Under the pieces are notes generated by a model. It was not told the DNA's origin and made no database searches. It was given only the letters and a program-made list of their open reading frames with translations. A stretch of DNA of 64,000 nt from Prolixibacteraceae bacterium (lineage in GTDB: Bacteria > Bacteroidota > Bacteroidia > Bacteroidales > Prolixibacteraceae), in the NCBI GenBank assembly GCA_025355875.1, contig JANXYV010000093.1:1-64000 (forward strand), in the 5' to 3' direction. Below, one piece after another: positions 29,983 through 45,213 of this stretch (its first letter is position 1; each line of letters opens with the position of its first letter). Both the position numbers and the translations under genes were made by a program.

Positions 29983-30336
29983 ATGGATTTTGAAATAATT
30001 AATATAAAAGACTACACGCTTATTGTTGTTCTGAACGAAAGGCTGGATACAAATATCGCACCCGATCTGAAAGCAGACCTTGTACGTGTAAATGCTAATG
30101 GCCAGAACAACATCGTTCTGGATGTCAGTCAATGTTCGTATTGTGATTCTTCAGGATTAAGTGCTATTTTGGTAGCCAACCGACTCTGTGAAGATAAACT
30201 TGGGACCTTTATTTTAACTGGCCTTCAAGCTGATGTTGAACAGATTATCCGGATTTCGATGCTTCATACCGTTTTAACAATCACAAAAACGATTGACGAA
30301 GCAGAAGAAATCCTGAGACAAAAGGAAATAAATTAG
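29983..30336 (+). CDS. STAS-domain protein (anti-sigma factor antagonist type)
   Basis: 117 residues forming a single STAS domain. The phosphorylation loop CSYCDSSGLSAILVANRL carries the conserved Ser of DSSGL (residues 55-59), so a serine kinase could control it in a partner-switching system. No RsbW-like kinase or PP2C phosphatase gene lies nearby. It is 44 bp after rpsA and 7 bp before the RNase Z gene, and probably co-transcribed with the latter. The partner is unknown. Confidence 0.88.
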   Translation: MDFEIINIKDYTLIVVLNERLDTNIAPDLKADLVRVNANGQNNIVLDVSQCSYCDSSGLSAILVANRLCEDKLGTFILTGLQADVEQIIRISMLHTVLTITKTIDEAEEILRQKEIN

Positions 30337-30343
30337 CCGATCC

Positions 30344-31285
30344 ATGTCCGGTCAGGCTTCGCCTTTTCAGTTGACCATTCTCGGAACCAGTTCCGCGTTA
30401 CCCACGTCAAACAGATATCCAACCGCTCAGGTACTTCAGGTACCTGGGCGGTTTTTTTTGATCGATTGTGGCGAAGGAACCCAAACCCAAATGAGGAAAT
30501 ATGGAATTGGGTTCTCGAAAATTAATCACATTTTCATTTCGCATCTCCACGGCGACCACATTTTCGGACTAATTGGACTGATCTCGACGATGTCGCTTCT
30601 GGGCCGGAAAAATGACTTGCACTTGTACTCGCACTCCGAACTTCAAAAATACCTGACCGATCAGATTCAATTTCATTATTCTGAAGGAATTCCCTTCAAA
30701 ATCACCTGGCATCCGCTGAATTTCAAGAAAGAACAAAAGATTTATGAGGATAGCAAAGTGACCATCTATTCGTTCCCTTTGGTACACAGAATTCCAACCT
30801 GTGGCTTCCGGTTCGACGAAAAACCGGTCTTGCCCAATTTAATTCCTGAAAAAATCGAAGAATACCAAATCCCAATCCGCGAAAGACAACGAATCAAGGA
30901 AGGTGGAGATTTTACTACTTCTGAAGGAAAACTGATTCCGCATGCTGAACTGGCTCTGAAAAAGCATGAGCCGCGTTCTTTCGCGTTTTGCAGCGACACA
31001 CGGTATGATGAATTGTACATCGATTCGGTCCGCAATGTGGATCTGCTCTATCACGAAGCTACTTTTGCCAGCGACAACAGTGATTTGGCGCACAGTACAT
31101 TTCATTCGACCGGCAAAGATGCCGCAACAGTCGCCCAAAAAGCAGGAGTCAGCCAACTTATAATCGGACATTTTTCAGCCCGTTATAAAGATCATCATAC
31201 AATCCTGAAAGAAGCCCAGGCGGTGTTTCAGGATACTATAGCAATTGCGGAAGGGGATGTTATCAAAGTTGAGAAAAACAAATAG
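30344..31285 (+). CDS. rnz: Ribonuclease Z
   Basis: 313 residues of metallo-beta-lactamase fold. It has the RNase Z start FQLTILGTSSALPTSNRYPT, the Zn site HLHGDH (residues 67-72), FCSDTRYDE and the C-terminal LIIGHFSARY (His ligand). It is the endonuclease that trims tRNA 3' ends. It follows the STAS gene by 7 bp. Its TAG stop codon overlaps the first base of the AATGAC/GTCATT repeat copy B. Confidence 0.96.
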   Translation: MSGQASPFQLTILGTSSALPTSNRYPTAQVLQVPGRFFLIDCGEGTQTQMRKYGIGFSKINHIFISHLHGDHIFGLIGLISTMSLLGRKNDLHLYSHSELQKYLTDQIQFHYSEGIPFKITWHPLNFKKEQKIYEDSKVTIYSFPLVHRIPTCGFRFDEKPVLPNLIPEKIEEYQIPIRERQRIKEGGDFTTSEGKLIPHAELALKKHEPRSFAFCSDTRYDELYIDSVRNVDLLYHEATFASDNSDLAHSTFHSTGKDAATVAQKAGVSQLIIGHFSARYKDHHTILKEAQAVFQDTIAIAEGDVIKVEKNK

Positions 31286-31339
31286 TCATTGATGGTCATT
31301 AACTTCGCGTCATTAATGGGAAAAGTTACAATGAATGAC
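31285..31339. repeat. AATGAC/GTCATT array, copy B
   Basis: GTCATT words at 31285, 31295 and 31309 (spacing 10 and 14) form the same arrangement as the reverse-complemented right arm of copy A. A single inverted AATGAC follows at 31334. The core GGTCATTAACTTCGCGTCAT matches the copies at 23 and 45 kb. It lies between the convergent rnz and helicase genes. Confidence 0.75.
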
Positions 31340-31349
31340 AACCAGTTGA

Positions 31350-32771
31350 CTACTCAAAAAATTCCTTGTTAAAATTCACCAGGTACAATCGTTCTGTCGG
31401 GCGGGTAAGAGCGGTGTAAAGCCAGCGCAAGAATTCAATGTTGAGCATTTCTTCAGTCACATATCCCTGATCCACAAACACTGCTTTCCATTGCCCGCCC
31501 TGTGCTTTGTGACAAGTTATGGCATACGAAAACTTGACCTGCAAAGCATTAAAATAAGGATTCTCCCTGATCTTTTCCCAGCGTTTCTTTTTACTTCGGA
31601 TATCCAGATAATCTTCTGAAACAGCGTCATATAATTTCCGGGTCTGTTCGTTGGTTAAGGAGGCAGACTCAATGGACAAAGCGTCCAGAATGATCTTGCA
31701 ATCGAACTCAATGTCAGGATAGTCAAGGAGTCGGAGACTAACATCAGCAAACCTGAACCCGTACATTTCTTCGTATTTGTAGATCGAAGCAATTTCGGCA
31801 ATATCGCCATTGGCAATAAAATCGATGGTTTCACTGGCCTCGAGCCAGAAGTAATTGTTTTTCACGATCAACAGCAAATCTCCAACCGAAATATCAGCCT
31901 CTTTATACAAAATGGTACTCCGGATGCCTTCATTAAATTTATTGGCACGTTTGTTCGAGCGGGTAACCACGATCGTCTCAAACAAGCCAAAGCGATTGTA
32001 ACAGGTTGAGATTTCCTCTATCAAATCAGCTCCTCCAAGCCTTCGGATATCATCAAACTGTTTATATTCAAGATGGAAATACCCAGGTGAATAAAATCCG
32101 TTGGTAATCAGGTTTCGGATGAAAGTCGCATTGTACAGGATTCCGGAGTTTTGGTCCTGACGTACCACCTCTGTCAATTCATATTCATAAACATCCCGGT
32201 CGTAAAAATCGAGTTCTTTCTTTGACAAGGCCGGACTCACATCTAACCCGACCGGAGGAAGCTGAGCGGTATCGCCAACCAGGATCAGCCGGCAATTTGA
32301 CCCGGAATATACATATTCGATCAGGTCTTCGAGCAAACGCCCCGAACCAAAAATCGATGATTCACCATTCGAATTCGAGACCATGGAAGCCTCATCGACG
32401 ATGAAAAATGTGTCTTTCATCAGATTTTTATTCACGACAAACCGACCCATTCCATCGGTTGAAGTCTGCTGGCGATAAATGCTTTTATGGATAGTATAGG
32501 CCGCCTGTCCCGAATATCCGGTCAAAACTTTAGCTGCCCGTCCGGTGGGAGCCATCAAGACCGATCTGAATTTGAATTTCGCGAACGTTTTGACCAGCGA
32601 TCCCAAAATAGTCGTTTTCCCGGTTCCGGCATAACCTTTCAGAACAAAAACCGCATCAGGATCAGATCCGGCAATAAAATCGGAAAGTTTATCCGACAGT
32701 TCTTCTTGTCCCCGGGTAGGAGATAAACCTAAATTCTGGAGGATTTCAGCCCGAATGTGATTTTTTATCAT
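31350..32771 (-). CDS. RecD/PIF1-like superfamily 1 DNA helicase
   Basis: About 473 residues. Walker A GYAGTGKTTILGSLVKTF, APTGRAAKVL, Walker B FFIVDEASMVSN, LVGDTAQLPPVG and the C-terminal UvrD_C_2 motif SYAITCHKAQGGQWKAVFVD are all present. Single-domain RecD-like helicases of this kind are annotated as ATP-dependent 5'-3' DNA helicases in Bacteroidota. ATG 32771 (MIKNHIRAEILQNLG) is preferred over the in-frame upstream codon. It is not part of a RecBCD complex, as no recB or recC lies nearby. Confidence 0.9.
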   Translation of the reverse strand: MIKNHIRAEILQNLGLSPTRGQEELSDKLSDFIAGSDPDAVFVLKGYAGTGKTTILGSLVKTFAKFKFRSVLMAPTGRAAKVLTGYSGQAAYTIHKSIYRQQTSTDGMGRFVVNKNLMKDTFFIVDEASMVSNSNGESSIFGSGRLLEDLIEYVYSGSNCRLILVGDTAQLPPVGLDVSPALSKKELDFYDRDVYEYELTEVVRQDQNSGILYNATFIRNLITNGFYSPGYFHLEYKQFDDIRRLGGADLIEEISTCYNRFGLFETIVVTRSNKRANKFNEGIRSTILYKEADISVGDLLLIVKNNYFWLEASETIDFIANGDIAEIASIYKYEEMYGFRFADVSLRLLDYPDIEFDCKIILDALSIESASLTNEQTRKLYDAVSEDYLDIRSKKKRWEKIRENPYFNALQVKFSYAITCHKAQGGQWKAVFVDQGYVTEEMLNIEFLRWLYTALTRPTERLYLVNFNKEFFE

Positions 32772-32818
32772 GATCTGCAAAATAACACAAAACCAAGGAT
32801 TCCGATGCATTTTTTAAC

Positions 32819-32826
32819 TAAATTTG
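32819..32826 (+). promoter_or_regulatory. -7 promoter box (TAAATTTG) for DUF3822-rsmD
   Basis: A full TAnnTTTG match lies 37 bp upstream of the DUF3822 start. No -33 TTG is found at 19-20 bp. Confidence 0.45.
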
Positions 32827-32863
32827 CCAGTGACCATCGCTGGTAACTGTATTCAACGGCCAT

Positions 32864-33709
32864 ATGCACGAACAGAATTTTGTTGACGAATCTTTTGACA
32901 TAAAACTTGCATCCGGATATCATTTGTCCATCCAGGTCGGCTTGGATGGATTTTCCTTTTGCATTCTCGATGTTCTCCGGAATAAATATCTCGCCTTTAG
33001 GCATATTCCATTAATTGTCGGCAAACTGCAATTCCTCACCCGGAAGGTTGAGACCATTTTTGAGCAGGAAGATAAACTGAATGCAGCATATCAATCGGTT
33101 ACTGTATATTACTCAACCCATAAGGCAACTCTTGTCCCGAAAGATTATTCAAGCGCTGCCCATTTCGGCAAACTGGCCGAGTTGACCAACGATCTCAGCC
33201 GGAACGAGGAGGTTCGGGCTGATCCTATACCCGGATTCAATTATGAATTGGTCTACTGTTGTCCGAAAGACCTAATTTCCTTTCTGAACCGAAAATATAC
33301 CGATTTCCACTTCAGGCATAAATCGATTCCTTTTCTGGGTTCGGCATTGGAACAGCGAAATGAAAAGAAAAACACGGTTCTGATCAATTTCGAAAAGAAG
33401 TATATCCGGGTCATTGTCATCATAGGTATGCAGATTTCATTGTATAACAGCTTCTATTTTAAAAATGAACTGGACTTTCTATACTATACCCTCAATATTT
33501 GTCAAAGCCTTCAAATTGATCCGGTACTCGACGAAATCATGATCAGCGGATTCGTGGCCGATGATTCGGGCTACATCAGACAACTGAAGAAATATCAGGG
33601 CAATGTGCGGTTCCTGAAACCCGCCATAGGGTTTAGTTATGGAAAAATTTTTGAAAAAACACAGAGGCATCAGTTTATCAGCTTATTAAATTCTTATACA
33701 TGCGAATAG
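32864..33709 (+). CDS. DUF3822 family protein
   Basis: 281 residues, assigned to DUF3822, a family found in Bacteroidota beside rsmD. It starts MHEQNFVDESFDIKLASGYH and looks like a degenerate actin/hexokinase-type (ASKHA) fold, with repeated beta-strand segments such as KNTVLINFEKKYIRVIVIIG and DEIMISGFVADDSGYIRQLK. There is no signal peptide. It overlaps rsmD by 10 bp, indicating translational coupling and perhaps a shared role in ribosome maturation. The function itself is unknown. Confidence 0.85.
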   Translation: MHEQNFVDESFDIKLASGYHLSIQVGLDGFSFCILDVLRNKYLAFRHIPLIVGKLQFLTRKVETIFEQEDKLNAAYQSVTVYYSTHKATLVPKDYSSAAHFGKLAELTNDLSRNEEVRADPIPGFNYELVYCCPKDLISFLNRKYTDFHFRHKSIPFLGSALEQRNEKKNTVLINFEKKYIRVIVIIGMQISLYNSFYFKNELDFLYYTLNICQSLQIDPVLDEIMISGFVADDSGYIRQLKKYQGNVRFLKPAIGFSYGKIFEKTQRHQFISLLNSYTCE

Positions 33710-34248
33710 TCGGTGGAATGCATAGGGGAAGAGTTTTTGAACCAGGGAAAAAATTTAAAGCCCGGCCCACTACCGACATGGCAAAAGAAAGCCTGTTCAA
33801 CATTCTGCAAAACACAGTGGATTTTGAAAATATCAGGGCTTTGGATCTTTTCTCCGGAACGGGAAGCATAAGCTACGAGTTTCTTTCAAGAGGTTGTCCG
33901 GATGTAACTTCGGTGGAAATCAATGCGGCTCATATTCATTTCATTCATGAAGTAATAGAAAAACTAGGCGAAAAGAACATCAGGATAGTTAAATCGAACG
34001 CCTTTGTTTTTGCCAAACGAATCGATGAACAATTTGACCTGATTTTTGCTGATCCGCCATACGACCATCCCAAATTTGCAGAAGTTGCTGATTTGATTTT
34101 CAATAACAAGCTGTTAAAACCCAATGGCCTGTTTGTTCTGGAACACAATTCTCACTTCGATTATTCAAAGCATCTAAATTTCAAGGAATTACGCCGATAC
34201 GGAAGTGTGCATTTCAGCCTGTTTACCGCAGAATCAAATGAAATCTAG
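33700..34248 (+). CDS. rsmD: 16S rRNA (guanine(966)-N2)-methyltransferase
   Basis: 182 residues, a SAM-dependent methyltransferase. MRIVGGMHRGRVFEPGKKFK is the RsmD start, RPTTDMAKESLFNIL the substrate-recognition block, ALDLFSGTGSISYEFLSRG the SAM motif I, and FADPPY the catalytic (D/N)PPY motif. Its ATG lies inside the end of the DUF3822 gene. Confidence 0.95.
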   Translation: MRIVGGMHRGRVFEPGKKFKARPTTDMAKESLFNILQNTVDFENIRALDLFSGTGSISYEFLSRGCPDVTSVEINAAHIHFIHEVIEKLGEKNIRIVKSNAFVFAKRIDEQFDLIFADPPYDHPKFAEVADLIFNNKLLKPNGLFVLEHNSHFDYSKHLNFKELRRYGSVHFSLFTAESNEI

Positions 34249-34282
34249 ACCAGTGTAAATGATCCATACCGACTTTACGTTG

Positions 34283-34400
34283 AAAATTATAAAATGCCGC
34301 CAAAGCTCAGAGAAGCCAAAAACTGCCAAAACTGAACACTCACACCTTACATCGGTGGAATTTGGTGTTTTTGTGAATTGGTGGCATAATTTTTAATTTT
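34283..34400. repeat. Imperfect inverted-repeat element of about 118 bp
   Basis: The left end (34283-34301, containing ATGCCGCC) and the right end (34380-34400, containing GGTGGCAT) are near complements with AT-rich outer tips. Parts of the interior also pair (CACACC against GGTGTT). It sits alone in the gap between rsmD and the ABC exporter genes and could be a long transcript-end hairpin or a miniature element. Confidence 0.45.
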
Positions 34401-34470
34401 ATTGTAACAAGTAAACTGTAACAATTACCTGCCAACCGACACTAATAGTCATGTTTTCAAATCTTTGATC

Positions 34471-35403
34471 ATGGAACTATTTCAGGCAAACAACATTGTG
34501 AAAGAATATGCCGAAAATACGGCATTGAGTTCGGTCAGCATTTCGGTAAAAGAAGCCTCTATTTTTGGGCTGCTTGGACCGAATGGCGCCGGAAAGACCA
34601 CGCTGATCCGCATTATCAACCAGATTACCGCTCCCGATAGCGGTGAATTGTATTTCGAAGGCAGACCGATGAAGTCTGACGATATTTACCGGATTGGCTA
34701 CCTTCCCGAAGAGCGCGGACTGTATAAGAAGATGAAAGTGGGAGAACAGGCGCTTTACCTGGCCCAGTTGAAAGGAATGTCGAAGCGCGATGCGCTCAAG
34801 AACCTGAAAACCTGGTTCGAAAAATTTGAAATTCAAGCCTGGTGGGGAAAAAAGGTTCAGGAATTATCAAAAGGTATGGCCCAAAAAGTACAGTTCATTA
34901 CCACAGTGATCCACGAACCCAAACTTCTGATCTTCGACGAGCCGTTCAGCGGTTTCGACCCGATCAATACCAACCTGATCAAAAACGAAATTCTCGACCT
35001 TAAAAAGAAAGGCACCACCATCATCTTTTCAACCCACGACATGCCGTCGGTCGAAGAAATCTGCGATCATATCGCGCTGATCAACCAATCACGAAAAATT
35101 CTCGACGGACAGATTGACGAAGTCCGCGAAAAATTCAAAACCAATACGTTTGAAATCGAGTTCAGGGGCGAAACACCAGACATTCAAAACGATTTGGGAA
35201 CCTACCTGAAAATTCTGGAACTCGATGAACATTCCGTCCGAAAGCAAATGAAAGTTCAGGTTCTGAACGGGCACTCCAACAATGAGTTTTTGAAAATTCT
35301 CATGAACCGGTTCGAAATCGTTTCATTCAGGGAGATCATTCCCAGCATGAACGATGTATTCATCCATGTTGTTGAGGAAAATAACCGCGAAATCAAGCTA
35401 TAA
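34471..35403 (+). CDS. ABC transporter ATP-binding protein (NatA-like)
   Basis: 310 residues with Walker A GPNGAGKTT, signature LSKGMAQKVQ, Walker B LLIFDEPFSGFDP, an H-loop in IIFSTHDMPSVEE, and a C-terminal extension (DUF4162-like) after residue 220. ATG 34471 is used; a TTG two codons earlier is unlikely. It pairs with the ABC-2 permease 97 bp downstream. The NatAB-type exporter class is inferred from the partner; the substrate (sodium, peptide or lipid) is unknown. The gap between the two genes contains overlapping inverted repeats. Confidence 0.93.
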   Translation: MELFQANNIVKEYAENTALSSVSISVKEASIFGLLGPNGAGKTTLIRIINQITAPDSGELYFEGRPMKSDDIYRIGYLPEERGLYKKMKVGEQALYLAQLKGMSKRDALKNLKTWFEKFEIQAWWGKKVQELSKGMAQKVQFITTVIHEPKLLIFDEPFSGFDPINTNLIKNEILDLKKKGTTIIFSTHDMPSVEEICDHIALINQSRKILDGQIDEVREKFKTNTFEIEFRGETPDIQNDLGTYLKILELDEHSVRKQMKVQVLNGHSNNEFLKILMNRFEIVSFREIIPSMNDVFIHVVEENNREIKL

Positions 35404-35408
35404 GCAGA

Positions 35409-35466
35409 CAGTCGCAGTCTCAGTCGACAGTTTTTATACTTAACACTGCGACTGACCACTGAGACT
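35409..35466 (+). promoter_or_regulatory. Overlapping, mutually exclusive hairpins between exporter genes
   Basis: Hairpin 1 pairs CAGTCGCAGT (35409-35418) with ACTGCGACTG (35445-35454). Hairpin 2 pairs AGTCTCAGT (35416-35424) with ACTGAGACT (35458-35466) and is followed by a T-run, like an intrinsic terminator. The left arms share three bases and the two pairings interleave, so they compete. This is an attenuator-like or polarity element between the ATPase and permease genes, or a decayed repeat. Confidence 0.45.
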
Positions 35467-35500
35467 TTTTTAATGTGTCCAATTAAAGAACTATACCGAT

Positions 35501-36847
35501 ATGAACAAATCTATTTTAATCCTGAAACGCGAATACCTGACCCGGGTAAAGAAAAAATCGTTCATCATCACGACCTTGCTGATCCCAATTTTCATGGCTG
35601 CTCTCACTGTTTTGCCTACTTACCTGGCCATGATGGACGATAAAGAAGAACGGACCATCGCGGTTTACGACCCGACCAGCCTGATTCTTGACAAACTCGA
35701 AAGCAATCAGTTCACCAAATTCCATTACATTCCCAAACAGGAATATCAGGAGTTGAGCCAGAATTTCAAATCAGACAAATATTACGCTCTCCTCTATGTT
35801 CCCGAAAACATCCTGACTACCAATCGAGCCGAGATGATCTCGAACAAGCAAGTGACTTTCGATGTCAAAAATATGGTTACCAGCCGGATCGAAAATATCA
35901 TCGAAACAGAGAAACGAAAACAGGTCGTCAATGAAAGTGGAATTCCGGACCTGGAAAAGAAACTGGCTGCCACAAAAACCAGCATCACCGTTGACACCAT
36001 TAAACTGGGTGAAAAAGGGGAAGCCAAGAAGAGTTCGACCGAAATTGCCATGGCTATCGGTTACCTTGCCGGTTTCCTTATTTACATGTTTGTATTCATC
36101 TACGGAACGATGGTCATGCGCGGAGTGATGGAAGAAAAATCGAACCGGATTGTGGAGGTCATCATTTCGTCGGTAAAACCATTCCAGCTTCTTTTTGGTA
36201 AAATTGTTGGCATTGGCCTGGTTGGCCTGACTCAGATTGCCATCTGGATGATCCTGGGTTTCGGAATTACTTCCGGAGTAACCGCATTCATGGGACATGG
36301 ATCGTCTGAAGCAGTTGCTCAGGCGCAAAACATCATGAGTTCGCAGGCTGCCGGACAGATCGCGCAGGCTGCGCCGGCCCAAAGCAACGTCACAATGGAA
36401 ATCATTCAGATGATCGGGAACCTGAATTTGCCACTGATCATTTTTTCTCTGTTTTTCTATTTCGTTGGAGGATTCATTTTGTATGCCTCACTTCAGGGCG
36501 CCATTGGTTCGGCGGTCGACAGCGACGAAGATGCCCAGCAAATGATGCTGCCCGTGATGATGCCACTTATCTTTTCAATCATCATTCTTTTTGCGGTCGC
36601 CAAAAATCCGGAAGGACCTCTGGCATTCTGGGCCTCGATTATACCATTTACCTCGCCCGTCATCATGATGGTAAGGATACCGTTTGGAGTACCCGCCTGG
36701 CAGTTAATTCTTTCGATGGTTTTGCTTATCGGAACCATTTTTGGATGCATCTGGATGGCAGGCAAAATCTACCGCACCGGAATCCTGATGTACGGCAAAA
36801 AAGTGAATTTTAAAGAAATTGTTAAGTGGTTGTTCTATAAAAACTAG
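35501..36847 (+). CDS. ABC-2 type permease (NatB-like)
   Basis: 448 residues. One N-terminal membrane helix (FIITTLLIPIFMAALTVLP) is followed by a large extracytoplasmic domain (about 45-180) and then five to six helices in the C-terminal half (for example YLAGFLIYMFVFIYGTMVMR and NLPLIIFSLFFYFVGGFILY). This is the NatB/ABC2_membrane_3 layout. The loop at about 265-300 is Ala/Gln-rich (SSEAVAQAQNIMSSQAAGQI). It forms the exporter with the upstream ATPase. The substrate is not determinable. Confidence 0.92.
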   Translation: MNKSILILKREYLTRVKKKSFIITTLLIPIFMAALTVLPTYLAMMDDKEERTIAVYDPTSLILDKLESNQFTKFHYIPKQEYQELSQNFKSDKYYALLYVPENILTTNRAEMISNKQVTFDVKNMVTSRIENIIETEKRKQVVNESGIPDLEKKLAATKTSITVDTIKLGEKGEAKKSSTEIAMAIGYLAGFLIYMFVFIYGTMVMRGVMEEKSNRIVEVIISSVKPFQLLFGKIVGIGLVGLTQIAIWMILGFGITSGVTAFMGHGSSEAVAQAQNIMSSQAAGQIAQAAPAQSNVTMEIIQMIGNLNLPLIIFSLFFYFVGGFILYASLQGAIGSAVDSDEDAQQMMLPVMMPLIFSIIILFAVAKNPEGPLAFWASIIPFTSPVIMMVRIPFGVPAWQLILSMVLLIGTIFGCIWMAGKIYRTGILMYGKKVNFKEIVKWLFYKN

Positions 36848-36911
36848 TTAAAGAGTTCTTTGTATTTTTATTTGAATTAATTTCTTATTATTGTTGCCAA
36901 TAAGTACAGTT

Positions 36912-36998
36912 ATGAATACTTTTTCACTGATTATGCCTATGGATATGTGTTGCAGCCCGCGGCCGCAGGTGGAAGGTATGCTTTCTGTTATCCATTAA
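36912..36998 (+). CDS. Putative cysteine leader peptide for cysK (28 aa)
   Basis: ATG 36912 to TAA 36996-36998 encodes 28 residues with adjacent Cys codons TGT-TGC at 36948-36953 in the context MPMDMCCSPRPQVEG. The GC-rich stretch after the Cys codons (36954-36970) stands out from the AT-rich surroundings. It is the only ORF between the exporter permease and cysK and is followed at once by an intrinsic terminator, so the expected role is ribosome stalling when Cys-tRNA is short rather than a functional peptide. No strong Shine-Dalgarno sequence is seen. A TTTG at 36859-36862 with a near-match TATTATTG at 36886-36893 could be its promoter. Confidence 0.65.
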   Translation: MNTFSLIMPMDMCCSPRPQVEGMLSVIH

Positions 36999-37031
36999 AA
37001 TCAATAAAGAGATAATATTTTAAAGCCTTCC
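36971..37031 (+). promoter_or_regulatory. Candidate antiterminator pairing of the cysK leader
   Basis: GGAAG at 36971-36975 and GCTTT at 36980-36984, inside the leader ORF, are complementary to CTTCC (37027-37031) and AAAGC (37022-37026) of the terminator left arm. They give ten base pairs with a 4-nt bulge. A ribosome stalled on Cys codons 13-14 would leave 36971-36984 free, while one at the stop codon would mask part of it. The parts fit classical attenuation; the pairing is inferred, not measured. Confidence 0.5.
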
Positions 37032-37052
37032 GAACACCGGAAGGCTTTTTTT
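37022..37052 (+). terminator. Intrinsic terminator (attenuator) before cysK
   Basis: AAAGCCTTCCG (37022-37032) pairs exactly with CGGAAGGCTTT (37038-37048) around a 5-nt loop, followed by a run of T. It lies 24 nt after the leader stop codon and 28 nt before the cysK ATG, so it must be bypassed for cysK expression from an upstream promoter. No promoter box is visible between it and cysK. Confidence 0.85.
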
Positions 37053-37079
37053 GTTTATAACCTTAAAAAAGACAATAAG

Positions 37080-37991
37080 ATGAGAGTAAACAACATTTTG
37101 GAAACCATTGGCAATAGCCCGTTGGTCCGTATCAACAACCTGTATCCGGCCGGATACGAAGTCTTTATTAAATTGGAAAAAACCAATCCGGGCGGCAGCA
37201 TCAAAGACCGGATTGCCCTTTCGATGATCGAAGATGCCGAGTCAAAGGGAATTCTGAACCCTGAAAGCGTAATCATCGAGCCTACTTCCGGAAATACCGG
37301 AATTGGTCTGGCGTTGGTGGCCGCAGTAAAAAAATATAAACTGATTTTGGTGATGCCTGAATCAATGAGCATCGAACGTCGTCGCATCCTCACAGCATAC
37401 GGGGCAGAATTGGTTTTAACTCCGCGCGAGCAAGGCATGAAAGGAGCTATTGCCAAAGCGAACGAACTTCAGGCAGAAACTGTTGGAGGATGGATTCCAT
37501 CGCAATTCGACAATCCGGCCAACCTCGAAGCACACCGTAAAAATACAGCACGGGAAATCCTGGCTGATTTTCCGGAAGGATTTGATTACCTGATTACCGG
37601 AGTGGGAACCGGCGGACATATTTCCGGAGTGACTGAAGTATTGAAACAACATTTTCCCAACCTAAAATCGTTTGCGGTTGAACCTGAACTGTCACCGGTG
37701 ATCAGCGGTGGATCCCCCGGCCCCCATCCGATTCAGGGAATTGGAGCTGGTTTTATTCCGGCAAACTGCAAGAAGGAATTGCTAGACGGAGTCATTCAGA
37801 TTTCGAAAGATGAAGCTTTTGATTACGCCAGGCGTGCAGCCAAAGAAGAAGGTTTATTCCTTGGAATTTCCTCGGGAGCCTCACTGGCAGCGGTTGCCAA
37901 GAAGATTTCAGAACTGCCGGTCGGTTCAAAAATACTTACTTTTGGTTATGATACCGGCGAACGTTATCTTTCGATAGAAGGTTTGTTTTAA
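37080..37991 (+). CDS. cysK: Cysteine synthase A (O-acetylserine sulfhydrylase)
   Basis: 303 residues, a PLP enzyme of fold type II making cysteine from O-acetylserine and sulfide. [16 protein letters not shown] is the family start, [15 protein letters not shown] carries the PLP lysine (K42), [11 protein letters not shown] is the substrate loop, [10 protein letters not shown] the phosphate-binding loop, and [11 protein letters not shown] the conserved C-terminus. CysK rather than CysM is favoured by the length and the TSGNTG and GTGGH contexts. It is probably controlled by the leader peptide and attenuator just upstream. A terminator follows at 38026-38051. Confidence 0.95.
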
Positions 37992-38025
37992 CCGGTGAAT
38001 CTTATATTCACTGATAGGAATTGCG

Positions 38026-38051
38026 AATGGCTGGTTTTACCGGCCATTTTT
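38026..38051 (+). terminator. Intrinsic terminator after cysK
   Basis: AATGGCTGG (38026-38034) pairs with CCGGCCATT (38040-38048), with one U-G wobble, around a 5-nt loop followed by T-rich sequence. It lies 34 bp past the cysK stop. Confidence 0.75.
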
Positions 38052-38097
38052 GTTTCTGCAATTCTTGATGCACCTCATGAAAGTCAAACCAATTATC

Positions 38098-38105
38098 TAT
38101 ATTTG
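38098..38105 (+). promoter_or_regulatory. -7 box (TATATTTG) flanked by a direct repeat
   Basis: A full TAnnTTTG match lies 25 bp before the gene at 38131. The 10-mer GTCAAACCAA occurs on both sides (38083-38092 and 38109-38118, 26 bp apart). These could be operator half-sites or a small duplication. Confidence 0.45.
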
Positions 38106-38130
38106 AAGGTCAAACCAAATTTGAGAATCC

Positions 38131-38622
38131 ATGAAAAAACTACTTCTTGTGCTTACACTGGTTGTTACTACTGGTCTTTACTTTACTGCTTCTGCAAAAA
38201 ATAAGGCTGAAAAAAACCGGAATTCGGGCGAAAAGATATTTATAGAAAAGGCCGATCACACCTTAACCTTGATTCAGGAGGCTGCCGAAAAAGGCTCATT
38301 CAAAGGAGTTGCATTCATCGCCTATATTCCGGGCGAAGTCACAACTTCATGGATTTCGAAGATGAAAGTAATTGGAAACCTGACCGGTGACAAAAACAAC
38401 TTTCTAGGCATTGTCAATGGTAAAGCGGCCGAAATGGCTTCAACCTTGCAAAATAGCGGAAGTCATGTCCGCGAAGTTTATACCGGAGAATTTGGTTGGC
38501 AGGGCGGGCTGATCAAAAAGGTCAGTTCTGGATACCTCCTCGCAGCTTTCTCAGGTGGAAAAACCGAGCAGGATTTGGAGGCCGCCAAAATCGGGCTCGA
38601 CTGGCTTGCCAAATATTTTTAG
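38131..38622 (+). CDS. Secreted protein with weak GlcG/HbpS resemblance
   Basis: 163 residues. A signal peptide (MKKLLLVLTLVVTTGLYFTA) is followed by a basic linker and one compact domain ending in GEFGWQGGLIKKVSSGYLLA and AFSGGKTEQDLEAAKIGLDW. That end resembles the C-terminal half of GlcG/HbpS-type domains, some of which bind heme, but the N-terminal half is divergent, so I leave the function open. It is monocistronic with its own promoter box, after the cysK terminator. Confidence 0.7.
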   Translation: MKKLLLVLTLVVTTGLYFTASAKNKAEKNRNSGEKIFIEKADHTLTLIQEAAEKGSFKGVAFIAYIPGEVTTSWISKMKVIGNLTGDKNNFLGIVNGKAAEMASTLQNSGSHVREVYTGEFGWQGGLIKKVSSGYLLAAFSGGKTEQDLEAAKIGLDWLAKYF

Positions 38623-38680
38623 AAGTGTTGGCAATCGTGCAAATTGAAACTTCTGGCATAACCATCTTCGATTCAAAACG

Positions 38681-39508
38681 TTGAAAGCATTTCGGGCACT
38701 GATTCATTTAAACCTGTTTATTTCACTGGCAGCCGTTTCCTTAACTGTCGAAACCCCGCTGCAACTAGGCCTGAAGCCGCATTGGCAGCCTTATCTGCTC
38801 TTCATTTTCTTTGCTGTTTTATTTGAATATGAACTCCACCAGCAGCTTTCGGCATTGACCAGCAAACAAACTCTGAATCGGAAGACGCAGTTTCTCCTGA
38901 CTTTTATTTCTGCTGCAGGATTTTTAGGCTCCTGCTTTTTTGTTTCAAAAATAACTTTGTTGGGTTTTATCCCGATTGGAATGCTGACTCTGTTGTATTC
39001 GTTCCTGATCTTCGGCAAGCCAAAATACCAATTCGGAATCCGGAAAATCCCTCTTCTGAAAACCATCCTGATCGCCACCGTTTGGTCAGCATCGACCTCA
39101 CTCCTACCGGTTTTTCAGTCGGACGAAAATTTTCAGTTCATCCTACTGATTCTGGTTTTTCTGGAACGCTTTTTCTTTATTCTCGCGATTGCCATTCCTT
39201 TTGATATCCGTGACCGACAGGCTGATCAGATTGCCGGAATGATAACCTTCCCAACCTTACTTGGTGAGGACCGGGCGATGAAATTTTCCTATTTTTTCCT
39301 GCTTGTATTTCTCCTGGTTTCAGTTTTTCACTATGCGGTTCCATCAGAAAGATTCATTCTCGGCGCTTTCAGTATTTCTGCACTAAGCACTTTCCTTTTT
39401 ATCCGAAATTTCAGGAATCGCCCAGATTACTATTTCGGAATTCTGGATGGGACTCTGATCCTTCAGGGAATCCTGGTCTGGGCATTCTCCCAGATTAATT
39501 GCAATTAA
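38681..39508 (+). CDS. UbiA-like integral membrane protein
   Basis: 275 residues with about eight membrane segments. It has the second Asp-rich motif of UbiA prenyltransferases (FDIRDRQADQIAGMITFP) but no recognisable first motif (NDxxD), the equivalent place reading FEYELHQQLSAL. It may be catalytically altered or not a prenyltransferase. The start is TTG at 38681; no ATG is available before the first helix. Its last 14 bp overlap the convergent M64 gene within a perfect palindrome. Confidence 0.7.
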   Translation: MKAFRALIHLNLFISLAAVSLTVETPLQLGLKPHWQPYLLFIFFAVLFEYELHQQLSALTSKQTLNRKTQFLLTFISAAGFLGSCFFVSKITLLGFIPIGMLTLLYSFLIFGKPKYQFGIRKIPLLKTILIATVWSASTSLLPVFQSDENFQFILLILVFLERFFFILAIAIPFDIRDRQADQIAGMITFPTLLGEDRAMKFSYFFLLVFLLVSVFHYAVPSERFILGAFSISALSTFLFIRNFRNRPDYYFGILDGTLILQGILVWAFSQINCN

Positions 39509-40766
39509 AGTCAATCATTTCCTGAATCGACTTTTTGCAGACGGGGCAAAACACGTCAATGGTGTGCAAATTGTTCATCAGGCAATTGATCCTTGGACGG
39601 TATACTCCTTTCGAAACATAACCGCCTCCTTCGTAAACACCTAGTTTTTCAGCGTTTTTATCTTTTGATGGAGTTGGTATTTCAGTTCCTTCAGGAAGCA
39701 TGCTTTTCCATTTCTGATCAAAATGAACCAAGGTGGTCAGGTTGGGCTCCCAGGGTTCAATATCAGCCGGATAGAATTCGGAATATTCCACCCCGCCAAC
39801 ATATTCATCGCCCAATCCGGCAAACAGATGCCCAAATTCGTGAATATAAATCTTGGCTGCTTCGTCAGCATGATGGGCTGCACTGATTCCATAGAAATTA
39901 TAAACAGCGCCACCACCATATTTATCCGTATTGGCCAGGATATAGATGTAATCATAAGGCGCGTTTCCGGCCATATCGCGAACTCCCTGAAAATCCTTGA
40001 TCATCAGGTAGCGCTCCGAATCAAAGGTGTAATAGGAACTGTTCAACCGAGTTTTGTTCCAAATATCTTTTCCCGGAATGTCGGGACCCGCACTTTTCGA
40101 AGGCGCCCAAACCCCGCGGATATTAAATTTGTCTTTGTTTTCGGAATACGGTGAATACTTAAAAAATCCTTCCGCAAATTTTCGGCAATCTTCCCTGAAA
40201 AGTTTTTCCTGCTTTTCGGTATACCCTTCTGAAAGGAGCACGATATCAACCTTGACAGCTGGTTCGCCCGAATGAACCACATCAAAAACAGGTAATTCTT
40301 CCCTTTCTTTTTTGATAAAATAGCTTTTAGGGTCCACTGTGTAATCAAATTTTTTCACAAAAACACCTTTTTTGTCGCGACTTGAAATGGTTACCTGAAC
40401 CTTTTCTTTTGGGAAAGGCAAGATAAGCGATTCAGGATAACAGCAGGCAGTGGTTTTCGCTTCCGGAGTAGTTTGCCATTCGTTGAAGAGCGTGCTGAAT
40501 CCGCGTGAATACAGCACTTCACCGGTTTCGGCACTTTTGACTTCCATGAATTGTTCACCATAGTGCAGGTTGTCGATCAGGTTGGTTTGCGACCCGGCCC
40601 AGTAAGGTTCCTGAATCAGTTCATCAAAGAAGAACTGCTCGTTTTCGGAATTTCCGCAATGGAAATAATCGAGTCGCAGGGTTTTCTCTTCGAAAAATTT
40701 ACTGAACTGGGCACTCAACTGCTGAGTAGATATCAGGAAAAAGGCAATGATGGCAAGGTATTTCAT
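39495..40766 (-). CDS. Secreted M64 (IgA peptidase-like) metallopeptidase
   Basis: 423 residues. It has a signal peptide (MKYLAIIAFFLISTQQLSAQ), an N-terminal M64 beta domain (about 22-160) and a zinc peptidase domain with HEFGHLFAGLGDEY; His309, Glu310 and His313 form the metal and catalytic site, and the Asp of GLGDE is a probable ligand. Cys residues near the C-terminus (INCLMNN and FCPVCKKS) may form disulfides. Homologues cleave IgA in Clostridium ramosum, but most M64 members act on unknown substrates. It overlaps the UbiA-like gene by 14 bp at the 3' end. Confidence 0.9.
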   Translation of the reverse strand: MKYLAIIAFFLISTQQLSAQFSKFFEEKTLRLDYFHCGNSENEQFFFDELIQEPYWAGSQTNLIDNLHYGEQFMEVKSAETGEVLYSRGFSTLFNEWQTTPEAKTTACCYPESLILPFPKEKVQVTISSRDKKGVFVKKFDYTVDPKSYFIKKEREELPVFDVVHSGEPAVKVDIVLLSEGYTEKQEKLFREDCRKFAEGFFKYSPYSENKDKFNIRGVWAPSKSAGPDIPGKDIWNKTRLNSSYYTFDSERYLMIKDFQGVRDMAGNAPYDYIYILANTDKYGGGAVYNFYGISAAHHADEAAKIYIHEFGHLFAGLGDEYVGGVEYSEFYPADIEPWEPNLTTLVHFDQKWKSMLPEGTEIPTPSKDKNAEKLGVYEGGGYVSKGVYRPRINCLMNNLHTIDVFCPVCKKSIQEMIDFNCN

Positions 40767-40803
40767 GAGTTTAGCGTTGATTTTTTTTCAAAAATAGTCA
40801 ATT

Positions 40804-42024
40804 TCAATTTACCGTAATCACTCTTGATCGGGTAACTACTTCGTTGTTGTTTTCGAAATAGCTGATGCGGATTTTTGTGTTTGATCCTAACAAAAATTGA
40901 ACCTTAAGCGTACTTTGTTTTCCGGCCTCAACCACTTCAAAATATTGCAAACGGTTAATGCTATCATACACGGTTTGCTTCCAGTTGGTATCAGATTCCA
41001 TCCAATACGCCCATGCATAGGGCGAATCTCCCCCCCCTTCAATGTATTCCATCTTTATTTTTAAACTTACACCTTTAGGCGTTACCGCCGAAAAGCTGTA
41101 ATACCTCCCAAAATCTGTATTGTAGCTGATAAACGATGTATTATTATCATTCAAAATATTTAAAACGCCATCAACCGATTCCGGATATGTAATTAAACTG
41201 ACCGGTACGAATGAGGTATTTTGGATGAACTGGGTAAGGTATTTCTCAAAGTCAGGAATTTGGGCTGTAGAGCCAATGCCGCTATATCTTTCCTCCAGAT
41301 TCTTCCTGATTTTTGCCGGATTCAGTGAGATTGCCTGAGTGATTAATTCCGTTCCCAGTGCTTCATTGTCCAGTTTTCCATCGGAGCTGAGATCTCCGCT
41401 CAAGTTTGCCAATAGCTCAGACAATTGAGCTTCCGAATGATAACCTTGTAAAATGACGGAAATAGCCAATAAAATCGCATTGTCGTCGCCTGATTTGCTG
41501 ATGTCAAGCAATTCGGAATTTTGGATATCACTTTTACTCATACTGAAGACAGCCAGAATCTCGTTCATCGCCTGCTTCTTGGCTGCGGCAAAAGAAAGTC
41601 CATCCGCGATCAGTTTTTCTACCCGGGCCTTTTCCAGGGTTGAAATCACATTGACATTCAAGGTACTGATGTCTTTTACATCGGCTAAAGCATACAAAGT
41701 AAGTTGGGAAGTTGAAACTTCTCCGGAAACTTCGTTAAAGTAAAATCCGTCAGACTTTAAAGAGATGTAGGGTGACGACAACTGAAGATTGGAAAGTTCG
41801 AAAGTTCCCGAATTGTCCTTGATTTGAGCGCTAAACACTTTACCGGTTTGTGAAAGATCAGAATTCAATTCTGAAACTGAAACCGAGGTGCCATTCAGGA
41901 ATGGACCTTTCTGAACGTAACCGGTCAATTGCGACTTGACAATGATTTCGGGACTATCATTCTTGCTACAAGATACGAAGGCAAGGGCAAAAGCTATTAG
42001 AGCAATAAGAAAAACAGTTTTCAT
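40804..42024 (-). CDS. Lipoprotein of unknown function
   Basis: 406 residues with a lipoprotein signal (MKTVFLIALIAFALAFVSCS; acylated Cys at residue 19). The first 110 residues look like a beta-sandwich (LTGYVQKGPFLNGTSVSVSE). A helical middle (120-235) contains KLIADGLSFAAAKKQAMNEI, and there is a second beta domain at the C-terminus. The pattern is reminiscent of surface lipoproteins with carboxypeptidase-regulatory-like domains. It lies 37 bp upstream of the M64 gene on the same strand, so co-expression is likely. No enzyme motif was recognised. Confidence 0.78.
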   Translation of the reverse strand: MKTVFLIALIAFALAFVSCSKNDSPEIIVKSQLTGYVQKGPFLNGTSVSVSELNSDLSQTGKVFSAQIKDNSGTFELSNLQLSSPYISLKSDGFYFNEVSGEVSTSQLTLYALADVKDISTLNVNVISTLEKARVEKLIADGLSFAAAKKQAMNEILAVFSMSKSDIQNSELLDISKSGDDNAILLAISVILQGYHSEAQLSELLANLSGDLSSDGKLDNEALGTELITQAISLNPAKIRKNLEERYSGIGSTAQIPDFEKYLTQFIQNTSFVPVSLITYPESVDGVLNILNDNNTSFISYNTDFGRYYSFSAVTPKGVSLKIKMEYIEGGGDSPYAWAYWMESDTNWKQTVYDSINRLQYFEVVEAGKQSTLKVQFLLGSNTKIRISYFENNNEVVTRSRVITVN

Positions 42025-42119
42025 GGCTAACTAATTTTTGGTTATGTAAAGATATGACAATGGCTGTAAACAAAACTCAGATATCTGTCATATATTTTCC
42101 ACCCAACCTGTATTTTTGA

Positions 42120-42151
42120 GCCCGGCAGCTTCATTAACGGAGCTGCCGGGC
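42120..42151. terminator. Perfect GC-rich hairpin between two minus-strand genes
   Basis: GCCCGGCAGCT (42120-42130) pairs exactly with AGCTGCCGGGC (42141-42151). It lies just after the alpha-galactosidase stop and should end that transcript. The T-run, however, is on the plus-strand side (GTTTTTTT), so as an intrinsic terminator it faces the wrong way. TATTTTTG abuts it on the plus strand. Confidence 0.6.
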
Positions 42152-42159
42152 CCGTTTTT

Positions 42160-44328
42160 TTACTTTTCTTCAGTAATCTCGATCACCGCACTGGTCAGGT
42201 CACTATTGTTGGGTAAGGATAAACCGATTTTCAGGAGGTAATCGCCTGAAAAGGTTTTACCTTCAGCGGCAAACCATGAATTTACGCCCGGCATTTTGTT
42301 GATTTCTTCGATCTTGTATTTTTTATTCGCGTCCAATCCAAGCAACTTCACCGGACTGAATTGATTAAATGTTCGAGGATGAAGCGCATAGGAAAATATC
42401 AAAGCTTTGCTTTTATCTTCATTGGCGTACATGAGAACTGCCCGTTCTTCGTCGTAAGGCGAAACCAGCCGGTACAACTCGCCTTTCCAGATCAGGTCCC
42501 GGAGTCGGTTGTGGATTTGAATGGCCTGCTGGCTGAATTTCAGCTCGTCAGGAGTCATTTCGTTCACCCGGATATCGTACCCCATTTTGCCCATCATCGC
42601 CACGTCAGTCTTGTATTTCAGAGATTGTTTTCCCCAGGAGGTGATGTGGTTGCACGAAGTGATGCTCGGGAAAAAGTACGAATAGCCCCATTGAATAAAT
42701 ACCCTTTCGTACGGATCGGTATTATCGCTGGGCCAGAATTCGGTAAAATATTTTAGAGCGCCGTAATCGGTGCGGCCTCCGCCACCCGAGCAAAGCATGA
42801 TCGGCAACTTCGGATATTTCGTGCGTAAACGGTCCATCACACGATAAAAACTCCGCACATATTCTATTTGAACATGTGATTGCTGATCTTTCAGATAAGG
42901 TGAATAGGTATTGGTCATCATCCGGTTGCAATCCCATTTGATAAAGGCAATCTTTGGATTTTTGGTCAGCATGTCATCAACCAGTTTATACACAAATTCC
43001 TGAACTTCAGGATTACAAAGATCAAGCACCAACTGGTTGCGGTAATAATGTTCGTCGCGGTTGGGCAATTTCAGCACCCAATCCGGATGTTTTTCATAGA
43101 GTTCGCTTTTGGGGTTCACCATTTCGGGTTCGATCCAGATTCCGAATTTCACACCTTTGGCTTCGGCCTGTTCAACCAGGTAGCCCAATCCGTGTGGTAA
43201 TTTGGTCTGGGTTTCCTGCCAGTCGCCCAATCCGGCCCGGTCGTTCGATCGTGGATATTTGTTCCCAAACCATCCGTCGTCGAGTAGAAAAAGATCGACG
43301 CCCAGATTTTTTGCACCTCCAAACAGTTCGGTTAGCTTGGGTTCATCAAAATCGAAAAAAGTTGCTTCCCAGTTGTTCAGCAAGGAAAGCCGGTTTCCAT
43401 TGCCATCCATCACACCATAATTGCGCGCCCATCGATGAAAATTCCGGCTGGCCTGCCCTTTGCCGGTATTGCTGAACGTGAATAAAAATTCAGGTGTGGT
43501 GAACGTTTCGTATGGCTTCAGGTGATATTCCGAAGCAAAGGGATTGATTCCGGAAATCATCCGCAGCGAATTGCTGTTGTCGAGTTCGAACGACATCTGG
43601 AAACTGCCTGTCCAGCCTAGTGTTCCGGCTATTACTTCTCCTGAAGTCTCGGTTGACGGAATGTTTTTTGAAAGGAAGAACACCGGCGTCTGATACATGT
43701 TTGCACGGGTTCCGAGTTTGCTGTCGATAGTTTTGATGCCGCTGGTCAGCTGACTTTCTTCCATGCGCATTTCCTTGGCCCAGTCACCATGAAACTGGGT
43801 AAGCCAGTATTTATAAGCATCGAGATGGATCATCGATGACGCGTATTTTGTCAGCAACACTGGATTTTTTTCCTGATGCCGGATTTCAGTCCATGTTTTG
43901 ATGATGTTTTCCTTCTGAAAAGCCACAAAATTCAGGCGCACTTCGACCGGATATTTCGAATCTTTCAGGAGAATAGAAGTGGTAATCAGGTTTCCGTCAC
44001 GGGTCGTTTTTTCATCTGCCACCAGTAGTTCAAGCGAGGGATTTCCATCATTGTGCAGAATTTTGATGGCAGGTTCAAACAAATTATCGGTTCCCGAAGG
44101 AATATATGCTTCGTGCAAGTTAGGCAAAGAAAGATAATCGGCCGGATCCTTCAATTTTTCGCCCAGATATACCTGATACAGTTTTTGATTTTTACCAACC
44201 GAAAGAACCAAAGCTGTGTTTTCAGTACCGACAATGATTTGTCTTTGAGTCTGAGAGGCAGCGGGGAACTGTGCTTTCAGATTCAACAAGGTAAATAGGA
44301 AAAATGGAAGAAGGAAAATCTTTTTCAT
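42160..44328 (-). CDS. GH36 alpha-galactosidase, exported
   Basis: About 722 residues. Signal peptide MKKIFLLPFFLFTLLNLKAQ; N-terminal beta-supersandwich (about 25-320); catalytic barrel with LFLLDDGWFG, GIWIEPEMVNPKSELYEKHP, the nucleophile Asp in FIKWDCNRMM, MLCSGGGGRTD and the acid/base Asp in WPSDNTDPYE; then a C-terminal beta domain. It hydrolyses terminal alpha-galactosides such as raffinose or galactomannan side chains. ATG 44328 is chosen because it begins the signal peptide; the longer in-frame extension is not plausible. It stands alone with its own promoter. Confidence 0.95.
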   Translation of the reverse strand: MKKIFLLPFFLFTLLNLKAQFPAASQTQRQIIVGTENTALVLSVGKNQKLYQVYLGEKLKDPADYLSLPNLHEAYIPSGTDNLFEPAIKILHNDGNPSLELLVADEKTTRDGNLITTSILLKDSKYPVEVRLNFVAFQKENIIKTWTEIRHQEKNPVLLTKYASSMIHLDAYKYWLTQFHGDWAKEMRMEESQLTSGIKTIDSKLGTRANMYQTPVFFLSKNIPSTETSGEVIAGTLGWTGSFQMSFELDNSNSLRMISGINPFASEYHLKPYETFTTPEFLFTFSNTGKGQASRNFHRWARNYGVMDGNGNRLSLLNNWEATFFDFDEPKLTELFGGAKNLGVDLFLLDDGWFGNKYPRSNDRAGLGDWQETQTKLPHGLGYLVEQAEAKGVKFGIWIEPEMVNPKSELYEKHPDWVLKLPNRDEHYYRNQLVLDLCNPEVQEFVYKLVDDMLTKNPKIAFIKWDCNRMMTNTYSPYLKDQQSHVQIEYVRSFYRVMDRLRTKYPKLPIMLCSGGGGRTDYGALKYFTEFWPSDNTDPYERVFIQWGYSYFFPSITSCNHITSWGKQSLKYKTDVAMMGKMGYDIRVNEMTPDELKFSQQAIQIHNRLRDLIWKGELYRLVSPYDEERAVLMYANEDKSKALIFSYALHPRTFNQFSPVKLLGLDANKKYKIEEINKMPGVNSWFAAEGKTFSGDYLLKIGLSLPNNSDLTSAVIEITEEK

Positions 44329-44359
44329 AAGAATATCTGTTAGATTTGTTTTAGTGTTA

Positions 44360-44390
44360 CGAAGATATCGAAACCCGATGGCACTGACAA
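44360..44390 (-). promoter_or_regulatory. Promoter of the GH36 gene
   Basis: On the minus strand a TTG (plus 44388-44390), a 20-bp spacer and TATCTTCG (plus 44360-44367, one mismatch to TAnnTTTG) lie 32 bp before the GH36 ATG. Confidence 0.5.
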
Positions 44391-44478
44391 CTCTATTCAG
44401 TTTTGATTTCAATATTTGCTATAATCCAAGCTAAATAGTTTAATTTAGTTCTTTCATAATCAAAAAAAATCGGTTGCT

Positions 44479-45213
44479 ATGAAACTAAAAGCCTTCCATA
44501 AATTGTCGTACGGATTGTACCTGATTGCTTCGGAATATCGGGACAAAAAAACCGGATACATTGCCAATACCGTATTTCAGGTGACTTCTGATCCGCCTCA
44601 ATTGGCTATTTCGTGCCATAAGAACAACTTTTCAACCCGGATAATTCTTGATTCAGGAGCGTTTTCGGTTTCAGTATTGAAAAAGGAAGTGAACATGAAA
44701 ATTGTTGGCGATTTTGGATTCATGAGTTCAACTGACATCAACAAGTTCTCCGGAATCAACTACCTCAAGGGGCAATCGGGTGCACCAATCGTGATCGACA
44801 GTTCGGTAGCCTGGTTCGACTGCAAGGTGGTAAAATCGATCGATATGGGAACGCATTTCCTGATCATTGGCCAGGTGATTGACTCGGATGAGATTTCGGA
44901 CGATGAGCCGTTGACTTACCAGTATTACAGGGAAAAGTACAAGATGTACTCGCCCAAAAATTCGCCAACCTACATCGAAAAATCGAAGCTCGAAGCTGAA
45001 ATTCCGATGATTCCAGTCCAGGATATTGAACCGGAACACGAGCATTTTTTTGATGGGGAAAGCTATGTTTGTGCCATTTGCGGTTTTACGTATAATCCTG
45101 AAGAAGGCGATCCTTCCATGGGAATTTCTCCAGGCACGCGTTTTGAAGATCTGCCCGCTGATTACAGATGTCCGATCTGCAATGCCAGCAAGGAGTATTT
45201 TAAGAAAGTGTAG
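44479..45213 (+). CDS. Flavin reductase-rubredoxin fusion protein
   Basis: 244 residues. Residues 1-165 form a flavin-reductase-like FMN-binding split barrel ([40 protein letters not shown]). Residues about 190-244 form a rubredoxin domain with both iron knuckles, [17 protein letters not shown] and [13 protein letters not shown] (Cys-x2-Cys twice). This is the high-molecular-weight rubredoxin (Hrb/NROR-partner) type, which passes electrons from NAD(P)H or ferredoxin to oxygen- or NO-reducing flavodiiron proteins in anaerobes. No flavodiiron gene lies nearby. It suggests an anaerobic or microaerophilic lifestyle. Confidence 0.93.

Follow-up and report, generated by a model that had tools for sequence, protein, structure and literature searches.

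The cysK gene of this Prolixibacteraceae bacterium is very probably preceded by a ribosome-mediated, cysteine-responsive transcription attenuator, which would sense charged Cys-tRNA. The basis for this proposal lies in the sequence, namely a leader ORF, its Cys codons, three covarying and competing helices, a terminator, a promoter-like motif found only upstream of the leader, and the sulfur genes downstream; from these we infer translation, stalling, the response to cysteine, and how fast and in what order the RNA folds. A cysteine-responsive peptide attenuator was already the reading of the preliminary description, and it is now backed by conservation, helix covariation, the downstream sulfur-assimilation genes and the placement of the promoter-like motif.

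In the window, i.e. the whole stretch of 64,000 nucleotides that was analysed, all features of the leader lie on the plus strand. An ABC-2 permease gene ends at 36847, directly 5' of the leader, and a loose promoter -7-like box (TATTATTG, 36886-36893) precedes the leader ORF. This ORF, of 28 codons (MNTFSLIMPMDMCCSPRPQVEGMLSVIH), runs from the ATG at 36912 to the TAA at 36998, with adjacent Cys codons, TGT-TGC, at 36948-36953 just after a Met codon. The terminator follows 23 nt beyond the ORF end; its arms (37022-37032 and 37038-37048) are paired at 11 of 11 positions, and the T-run that becomes the U-tract reaches 37052. The gene presumed to be controlled, cysK (37080-37991), encodes a cysteine synthase A that scores 398 bits with NCBIfam TIGR01139 (cut-off 351) and also matches PF00291. 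Thus, the 28-codon ORF with adjacent Cys codons, the 11-bp terminator with its T-run and cysK at 37080 are all present where the preliminary description had placed them.

Relatives of cysK were sought in 61 genomes, and 32 orthologous loci of the window's family, Prolixibacteraceae, were examined, 31 of them with upstream DNA. At 26 of these 31 loci there is a Cys-run upstream ORF (uORF) and, beyond it, a terminator, a recurrence that points to more than chance; the uORF is missing at the other five (L008, L009, L010, L024 and L030). Leaders were also seen in Sunxiuqinia indica, Draconibacterium and Mariniphaga. The MCCSP-type ORF expected in relatives is conserved as to its Cys run but not as to its wording, since leaders of the window's genus mostly read MYMCCC (typical peptide, MKANFSYMYMCCCYKQSGEGMFSTNI) and the MCCSPRP of the window is an outlier. 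In the congeners L008-L010 the terminator is kept without a leader ORF, straight after the stop codon of the ABC-2 permease gene, which is perhaps a natural deletion of the sensor.

For the tests described below, six named loci were added to the 26 to give a working set of 32 leaders; L069, near-identical to L066, and L051, L052, L054 and L068, copies of L008, L012, L022 and L026, respectively, had been dropped. All 32 leaders have a terminator with arms of 11-14 nt and at least 11 pairs (one mismatch each in L026 and L064), and their peptides are 19-28 residues long. Both Cys codons are in use (TGT 59 times, TGC 49 times), so that it is the Cys residue and not a DNA word that is kept. The promoter consensus of Bacteroidota is TAnnTTTG. 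The looser motif TA.{1,3}TTG occurs in the 60 nt before the ORF in 32/32 leaders (mean of 10.3 in shuffled sequences, sd 2.4), and between the terminator and cysK in 0/32 (shuffled 2.4, sd 1.4).

The leader is not found at every cysK gene. Counted by hand, 42 of 139 distinct cysK loci carry it, a count from which duplicate sequences, the second-type cysK loci L039-L050 and L020, for want of upstream DNA, are excluded; the script gave 41, with L010 spurious and L026 and L064 missed. A leader stands at none of the 63 cysK loci whose immediate upstream neighbour is a serine-acetyltransferase-like gene (by motif), as against 42 of the 76 other loci (Fisher 2e-14, a value that ignores relatedness and uses the uncorrected 41).

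Four segments of the window RNA can be assigned to the alternative structures. Segment 1 (36916-36924) pairs with segment 2 (36971-36979) over 9 bp, three of them G-U, and segment 2 can instead pair, through 36971-36977, with positions 37025-37031 of segment 3, the left arm of the terminator (37022-37032). Segment 4 comprises the right arm and the T-run (37038-37052). The start of the ORF therefore pairs with its end, forming a hairpin 1:2 whose loop holds the Cys codons. Segment 1, as well as the sulfur regulon discussed below, was absent from the earlier account. The ten-pair antiterminator proposed there is partly sustained: all ten pairs exist, but they enclose a 4-nt bulge, and the contiguous 7-bp helix is computed to be more stable (-8.3 versus -6.0 kcal/mol).

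The three helices covary among relatives. The energy of each leader's own pairing was compared with that of pairings with the partner segments of other leaders, over 20000 permutations. The cognate 1:2 helix averaged -14.36, against -10.78 when permuted (sd 0.53, 27 leaders; 0/20000), and 2:3 averaged -13.05 against -11.37 (sd 0.38, 18 distinct arms; 0/20000). Relatedness was handled solely through a subset with one leader per genus (13 leaders; the genus of L053, L058 and L064 was inferred), in which z was -5.0 for 1:2, -4.2 for 2:3 and -7.3 for 3:4, versus -0.8, -0.2, +0.6 and -0.6 for four control pairings. Over all 32 leaders the controls gave p values of 0.08, 0.35, 0.82 and 0.09, two of them leaning the same way as the cognate helices. 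The compensatory changes anticipated for the hairpins were found, with the controls flat at one leader per genus. Examples changed on both sides are L029 (GGAAAAGU with GCUUUUCU) and L028 (AACACCUU with AAGGUGUU), and L032 has no helix 1:2. The window itself holds an atypical leader, with only two Cys and a weak 1:2 (z -1.19 against partner-permuted pairings). Across the family, the leaders combine several marks of the trp/his type: Cys codons in a leader ORF, an intrinsic terminator, an antiterminator and a hairpin 1:2.

In the mechanism that we propose, transcription would start just upstream of the leader ORF. When Cys-tRNA is scarce, the Cys codons, which sit in the loop that joins segments 1 and 2, would stall the ribosome, so that 1:2 could not close and segment 2 would pair with segment 3 before the right arm of the terminator exists; once 2:3 had formed, the terminator would come too late and cysK would be transcribed. 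When cysteine is plentiful, the ribosome would reach the stop codon beyond segment 2. Helix 1:2 would then close behind it, segment 2 would be kept apart from segment 3, 3:4 would form and transcription would end.

Folding was computed at equilibrium with simple ribosome footprints, not as kinetics. With the ribosome on the last Cys codon, the nascent RNA downstream forms an antiterminator of at least 5 bp in 32/32 leaders, and the RNA of the whole leader folds into the terminator, also in 32/32. In ribosome-free nascent RNA, 1:2 reaches at least 5 bp in 20/32 leaders and 2:3 in 14/32, and untranslated RNA may thus read through; that of the window favours 2:3 (7.3 bp) over 1:2 (3.7 bp). With the ribosome at the stop codon and the RNA truncated 15 nt upstream of the P site, 1:2 has at least 5 bp in 18/32. 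In the complete window RNA with a ribosome on the second Cys codon the terminator still forms at equilibrium (P 0.96), its helix 3:4 having -17.5 versus -8.3 for 2:3. Because the terminator wins at equilibrium even downstream of a stalled ribosome, the switch would have to be kinetic.

The same calculations speak against one step of the preliminary description, in which finished translation was to cover part of the antiterminator segment. At an assumed footprint of 15 nt, a ribosome at the stop codon of the window leaves GGAAGGU uncovered, 16-22 nt upstream of the P-site codon. Termination would therefore need 1:2 to form behind the ribosome and the ribosome to part segments 2 and 3. When the ribosome is masked at the stop codon and pairs across it are allowed, the nascent window RNA keeps 2:3 (P 0.99), so that the proposed mechanism needs pairs across the ribosome to be barred. 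The model thus depends on two presumed steps, a ribosome that bars pairing across itself and an antiterminator that lasts long enough.

A covariance model built from the 32 cysK leaders, R1, matched 75 of 140 family genomes and 14 of 23 genera; at least one of the 75 matches (L010 in genome G011) is without a Cys uORF. This count, like that of model R2 in the family (below) and those from the phylum sample of 395 genomes, comes from searches of more than 40 genomes, in which stricter filters were used and weak matches are lost. R1 gives generic terminators scores up to about 45 bits, and L010 scores 54 bits. Inspection covered 20 of the matched places, and a Cys-rich uORF was present at 20/20. 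Judged by reading, the first downstream ORF at these places is cysK in 14, OsmC-like in four (the one OsmC protein tested matched PF02566) and siroheme-synthase-like in two. At L189 the siroheme-like gene is followed by genes for CysJ-like and sulfite/nitrite-reductase proteins, and downstream of the OsmC gene at L191 come a gene that by eye is cysK-like and one for a sulfite/nitrite-reductase protein with a rhodanese domain. In the window's own genome the window leader scores 87 bits and the next match 45.7, with no other clear score; seven further matches there (L132-L138) showed no convincing leader among ORFs of less than 50 aa with adjacent Cys.

The siroheme gene was found in 30 of 60 family genomes, and 20 of the 30 loci have a second type of Cys leader, MxxxSS...MCMCC...MQK (16 by script and four, with fewer Cys, by eye: L237, L238, L239 and L248). 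Of the ten loci without it, L247 and L251 follow a NirD-like protein (by eye), and some genomes that have no leader at the siroheme gene carry it before DUF2061-CysJ-CysI-like genes (L277-L279). At L291, in a genome without a siroheme-gene leader, a leader precedes cysD-cysN (TIGR02039 and TIGR02034, both above cut-off), and at L283 a leader lies upstream of a cysK (TIGR01139, 445 bits). The own genome carries a second-type leader at G000:C203:14151-14319 (104 bits with model R2), upstream of a sulfite-reductase operon that encodes a DUF2061 protein (PF09834), a siroheme-synthase N-terminal protein (88 bits, cut-off 62), CysJ (731, cut-off 668) and CysI (823, cut-off 757). This leader has only two Cys, non-adjacent, scores 31 bits with R1 and was found via the siroheme gene. 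At L292 (340-570), the DUF2061 membrane protein (PF09834) heads this Cys-leader sulfite reductase operon, which hints at a role of that protein in sulfur assimilation.

Covariation extends to these leaders. In the sulfite-type set (19 leaders, L257 left out of these tests; the script picked a wrong last Cys in L253), permutation gave 0/20000 for 1:2 and p 0.0025 for 2:3; with one leader per genus (nine), 1:2 had p 0.015 and 2:3 p 0.007, versus 0.17 to 0.94 for controls. In alignment A3 (18 sequences, L256 and L257 left out), 84.9% of cells are paired in helix 1:2 and 95.8% in the terminator, and five pairs are changed on both sides versus 2.9 in shuffles, a number reached by 36 of 500 shuffles. 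Helix 2:3 is 95.2% paired in A3, but just one of its pairs is changed on both sides. The L257 leader (MNIQKLHTASCCSCTFMCMMCCCCCM), some 454 nt before the siroheme gene, has nine Cys, the last run being at the ORF end; a 14-bp terminator follows and the 1:2 layout does not fit. At L040, where the downstream gene is a second-type cysK, an ORF (MSFRYRKRAYSYFFSCCC) at about 127-70 nt before that gene has its Cys run at the very end, with no terminator seen by eye, and is closer to the actinobacterial layout.

R2 matched 72 of 140 family genomes and 12 of 23 genera. In the phylum sample it matched 3/395 genomes, the two besides the own genome having Met-rich leaders before metY; R1 matched 2/395, the own genome and G522. 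The metY genes at L285 and L288 score 647 and 703 bits, respectively (TIGR01326, cut-off 495). L288 (1-560) and L289 (reverse strand, 1-530) each hold, by eye, two tandem leader-terminator units with Met-rich ORFs upstream of metY, those of L289 being MNLFVKNNISQKNLRSVMMCMMLFITKG and then ...MMAMMCMSDLMREGII; these units are possible methionine attenuators. A Met/Cys-rich leader (MKSLKQNMMMCMIMSMSMCMMMSMCRILQKAKQ) with a terminator lies at L285 (98-310), ahead of metY and of a gene that is MetX-like (212 bits, under the cut-off), and another (MMIQLFENRIMMCMMPCRMKNMCMMACCMKFYCRRMKH), also with a terminator, at L286 (123-300), where the 2.2 kb examined contain no same-strand ORF of at least 60 aa. 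At L168 (1501-1629, minus strand), a CysCys leader (MIQTVSNITYMYMCCFFMQPRTAYDI) and a terminator precede a gene for a MetN-like ABC importer. In ten other genomes that have the MetN-like gene, the 330 nt before it contained no adjacent-Cys uORF, and the leader of G522 is accordingly regarded as isolated.

Of 41 relatives of an Ignavibacteriales genome, 28 have a close cysK, and at nine of the 28 loci a CCC leader occurs with a terminator of other sequence. Their 2:3 helix gave p 0.18 with the stem alone and p 0.005 with the terminator loop added, a change made post hoc, after the first Ignavibacteriales result; the other two sets stay significant with it. Helix 1:2 was not supported in these leaders (p 0.36).

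Taken as a group, these loci show that the window leader is one of several leaders before sulfur genes and not a lone element. A wider proposal, which we hold to be possible though somewhat less than probable, is that Bacteroidota have a sulfur-amino-acid attenuation regulon in which one design, with Cys and Met codons looped out by a hairpin that lies entirely within the ORF, is used throughout and stalling at either sulfur amino acid would switch on the supply of that amino acid. It would take in cysK, DUF2061-cysG-cysJI, cysDN, OsmC, cysK with sulfite reductase and, through Met-rich leaders, metY.

It must be taken into account that Met codons occur almost as often as Cys codons, so that the signal may not be cysteine alone. 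Sensing of Met as well as Cys through a mixed Met/Cys cluster would widen the cysteine attenuator, and we regard it as rather unlikely. In its favour, Met accounts for 10.1% of the residues in cysK leaders and for 16.7% of those in sulfite-type leaders (start Met excluded), it directly precedes the first Cys in 25/32 cysK leaders, and Met-rich leaders lie upstream of metY genes (L285 and L288, both above the TIGR01326 cut-off, and L289 by eye). However, the nine Ignavibacteriales-related cysK leaders have 2.9% Met and yet always CCC, and Met codons may be spare start codons.

The remaining readings fare worse. It is very unlikely that the nascent peptide itself, in the exit tunnel, arrests the ribosome on a small molecule as TnaC does: a Cys-rich peptide of 19-28 residues is indeed kept in 32 leaders, but outside Cys and Met it drifts widely between genera, with the pairing kept. 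Even less credit is due to a riboswitch, with hairpin 1:2 binding a sulfur metabolite directly and the ORF incidental. A structured leader upstream of sulfur genes would suit it; against this, both synonymous codons serve for the conserved Cys residues, only 7 of 177 columns of alignment A1 are invariant, and no Rfam covariance model reached its gathering score in the 15 kb from 30000 to 45000 of the window. A known Rfam riboswitch or T-box was likewise discarded on these 0 matches. The CCC runs could recall a small thiol- or metal-binding protein, an explanation of slighter probability still, given that four leader peptides had no NCBIfam match (E up to 0.1), that the window peptide has no Pfam match and that the start and end of the ORF are constrained as RNA. 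Finally, it is hardly credible that the terminator merely ends the upstream ABC-2 permease operon and that the ORF is a chance frame, a reading suggested by the permease gene end at 36847 and by the terminators without uORF of L008-L010, since Cys-run uORFs whose helices covary are met again at other genes and in other contexts and the promoter-like motif lies upstream of the uORF in 32/32.

The cysteine-responsive attenuator can be set beside several known systems. Cys-specific T-boxes of Firmicutes sense uncharged tRNA-Cys and act on the transcription of cys genes by direct tRNA binding, with no ORF; here, in contrast, there is a leader ORF and no Rfam match. Polycysteine uORFs of Actinobacteria resemble the present leaders in having a short Cys-run ORF upstream of cys genes. 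In the mycobacterial ones, cysteine-responsive attenuation is reported (Canestrari et al. 2020, as related in passages of PMC9031893 and PMC13236596), and the M. smegmatis case is described as one of control of translation. Actinobacterial cys leaders have no conserved terminator hairpin according to the passages on them in PMC1262725, whereas intrinsic terminator and antiterminator are both conserved here; since the terminator is conserved, our leaders were not assigned to that class as those passages portray it.

Within Bacteroidota, leader-peptide attenuation before amino acid operons has been inferred from the transcriptome of Flavobacterium psychrophilum, a member of the same phylum, for which section 19 of PMC9723704 counts pheA and hisG as conserved 5' elements and gives no cysteine case, and a passage of PMC7366714 suggests it for sORFs of B. 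thetaiotaomicron. The main text of a 2010 survey of premature terminators (PMC2965389) contains neither "cysK" nor a word beginning with "Bacteroid". In the open PMC literature, which leaves most subscription journals and all supplements outside, we found no attenuation by cysteine that uses an intrinsic terminator, and no cysteine attenuator in Bacteroidota.

Little was found in print on the control of cysteine synthesis in Bacteroidota, and the leaders alone point to a regulon of sulfite reduction, sulfate activation, cysteine synthase and OsmC proteins. They also indicate that cysteine has a trp-like attenuator of its own, complete with intrinsic terminator, a concrete and cheaply testable proposition, and the layout with codons in the loop may be useful for locating further leaders and for building cysteine sensors.

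The trp, his and leu attenuators of Proteobacteria have codons for their own amino acid in a leader ORF, helices 1:2, 2:3 and 3:4, and an intrinsic terminator; in trpL, segment 1 contains the Trp codons, and the ORF ends between segments 1 and 2. The present leaders are alike in their leader codons, alternative helices and intrinsic terminator before a biosynthetic gene, and differ in the amino acid, cysteine, in the phylum, Bacteroidota, in control codons that lie in the 1:2 loop and in a stop codon beyond segment 2. They would therefore represent a variant of the design in which the sensing hairpin has both its arms within the ORF. The kind of control is known, and what is apparently new is the amino acid in combination with a terminator, the phylum, the regulon and the layout.
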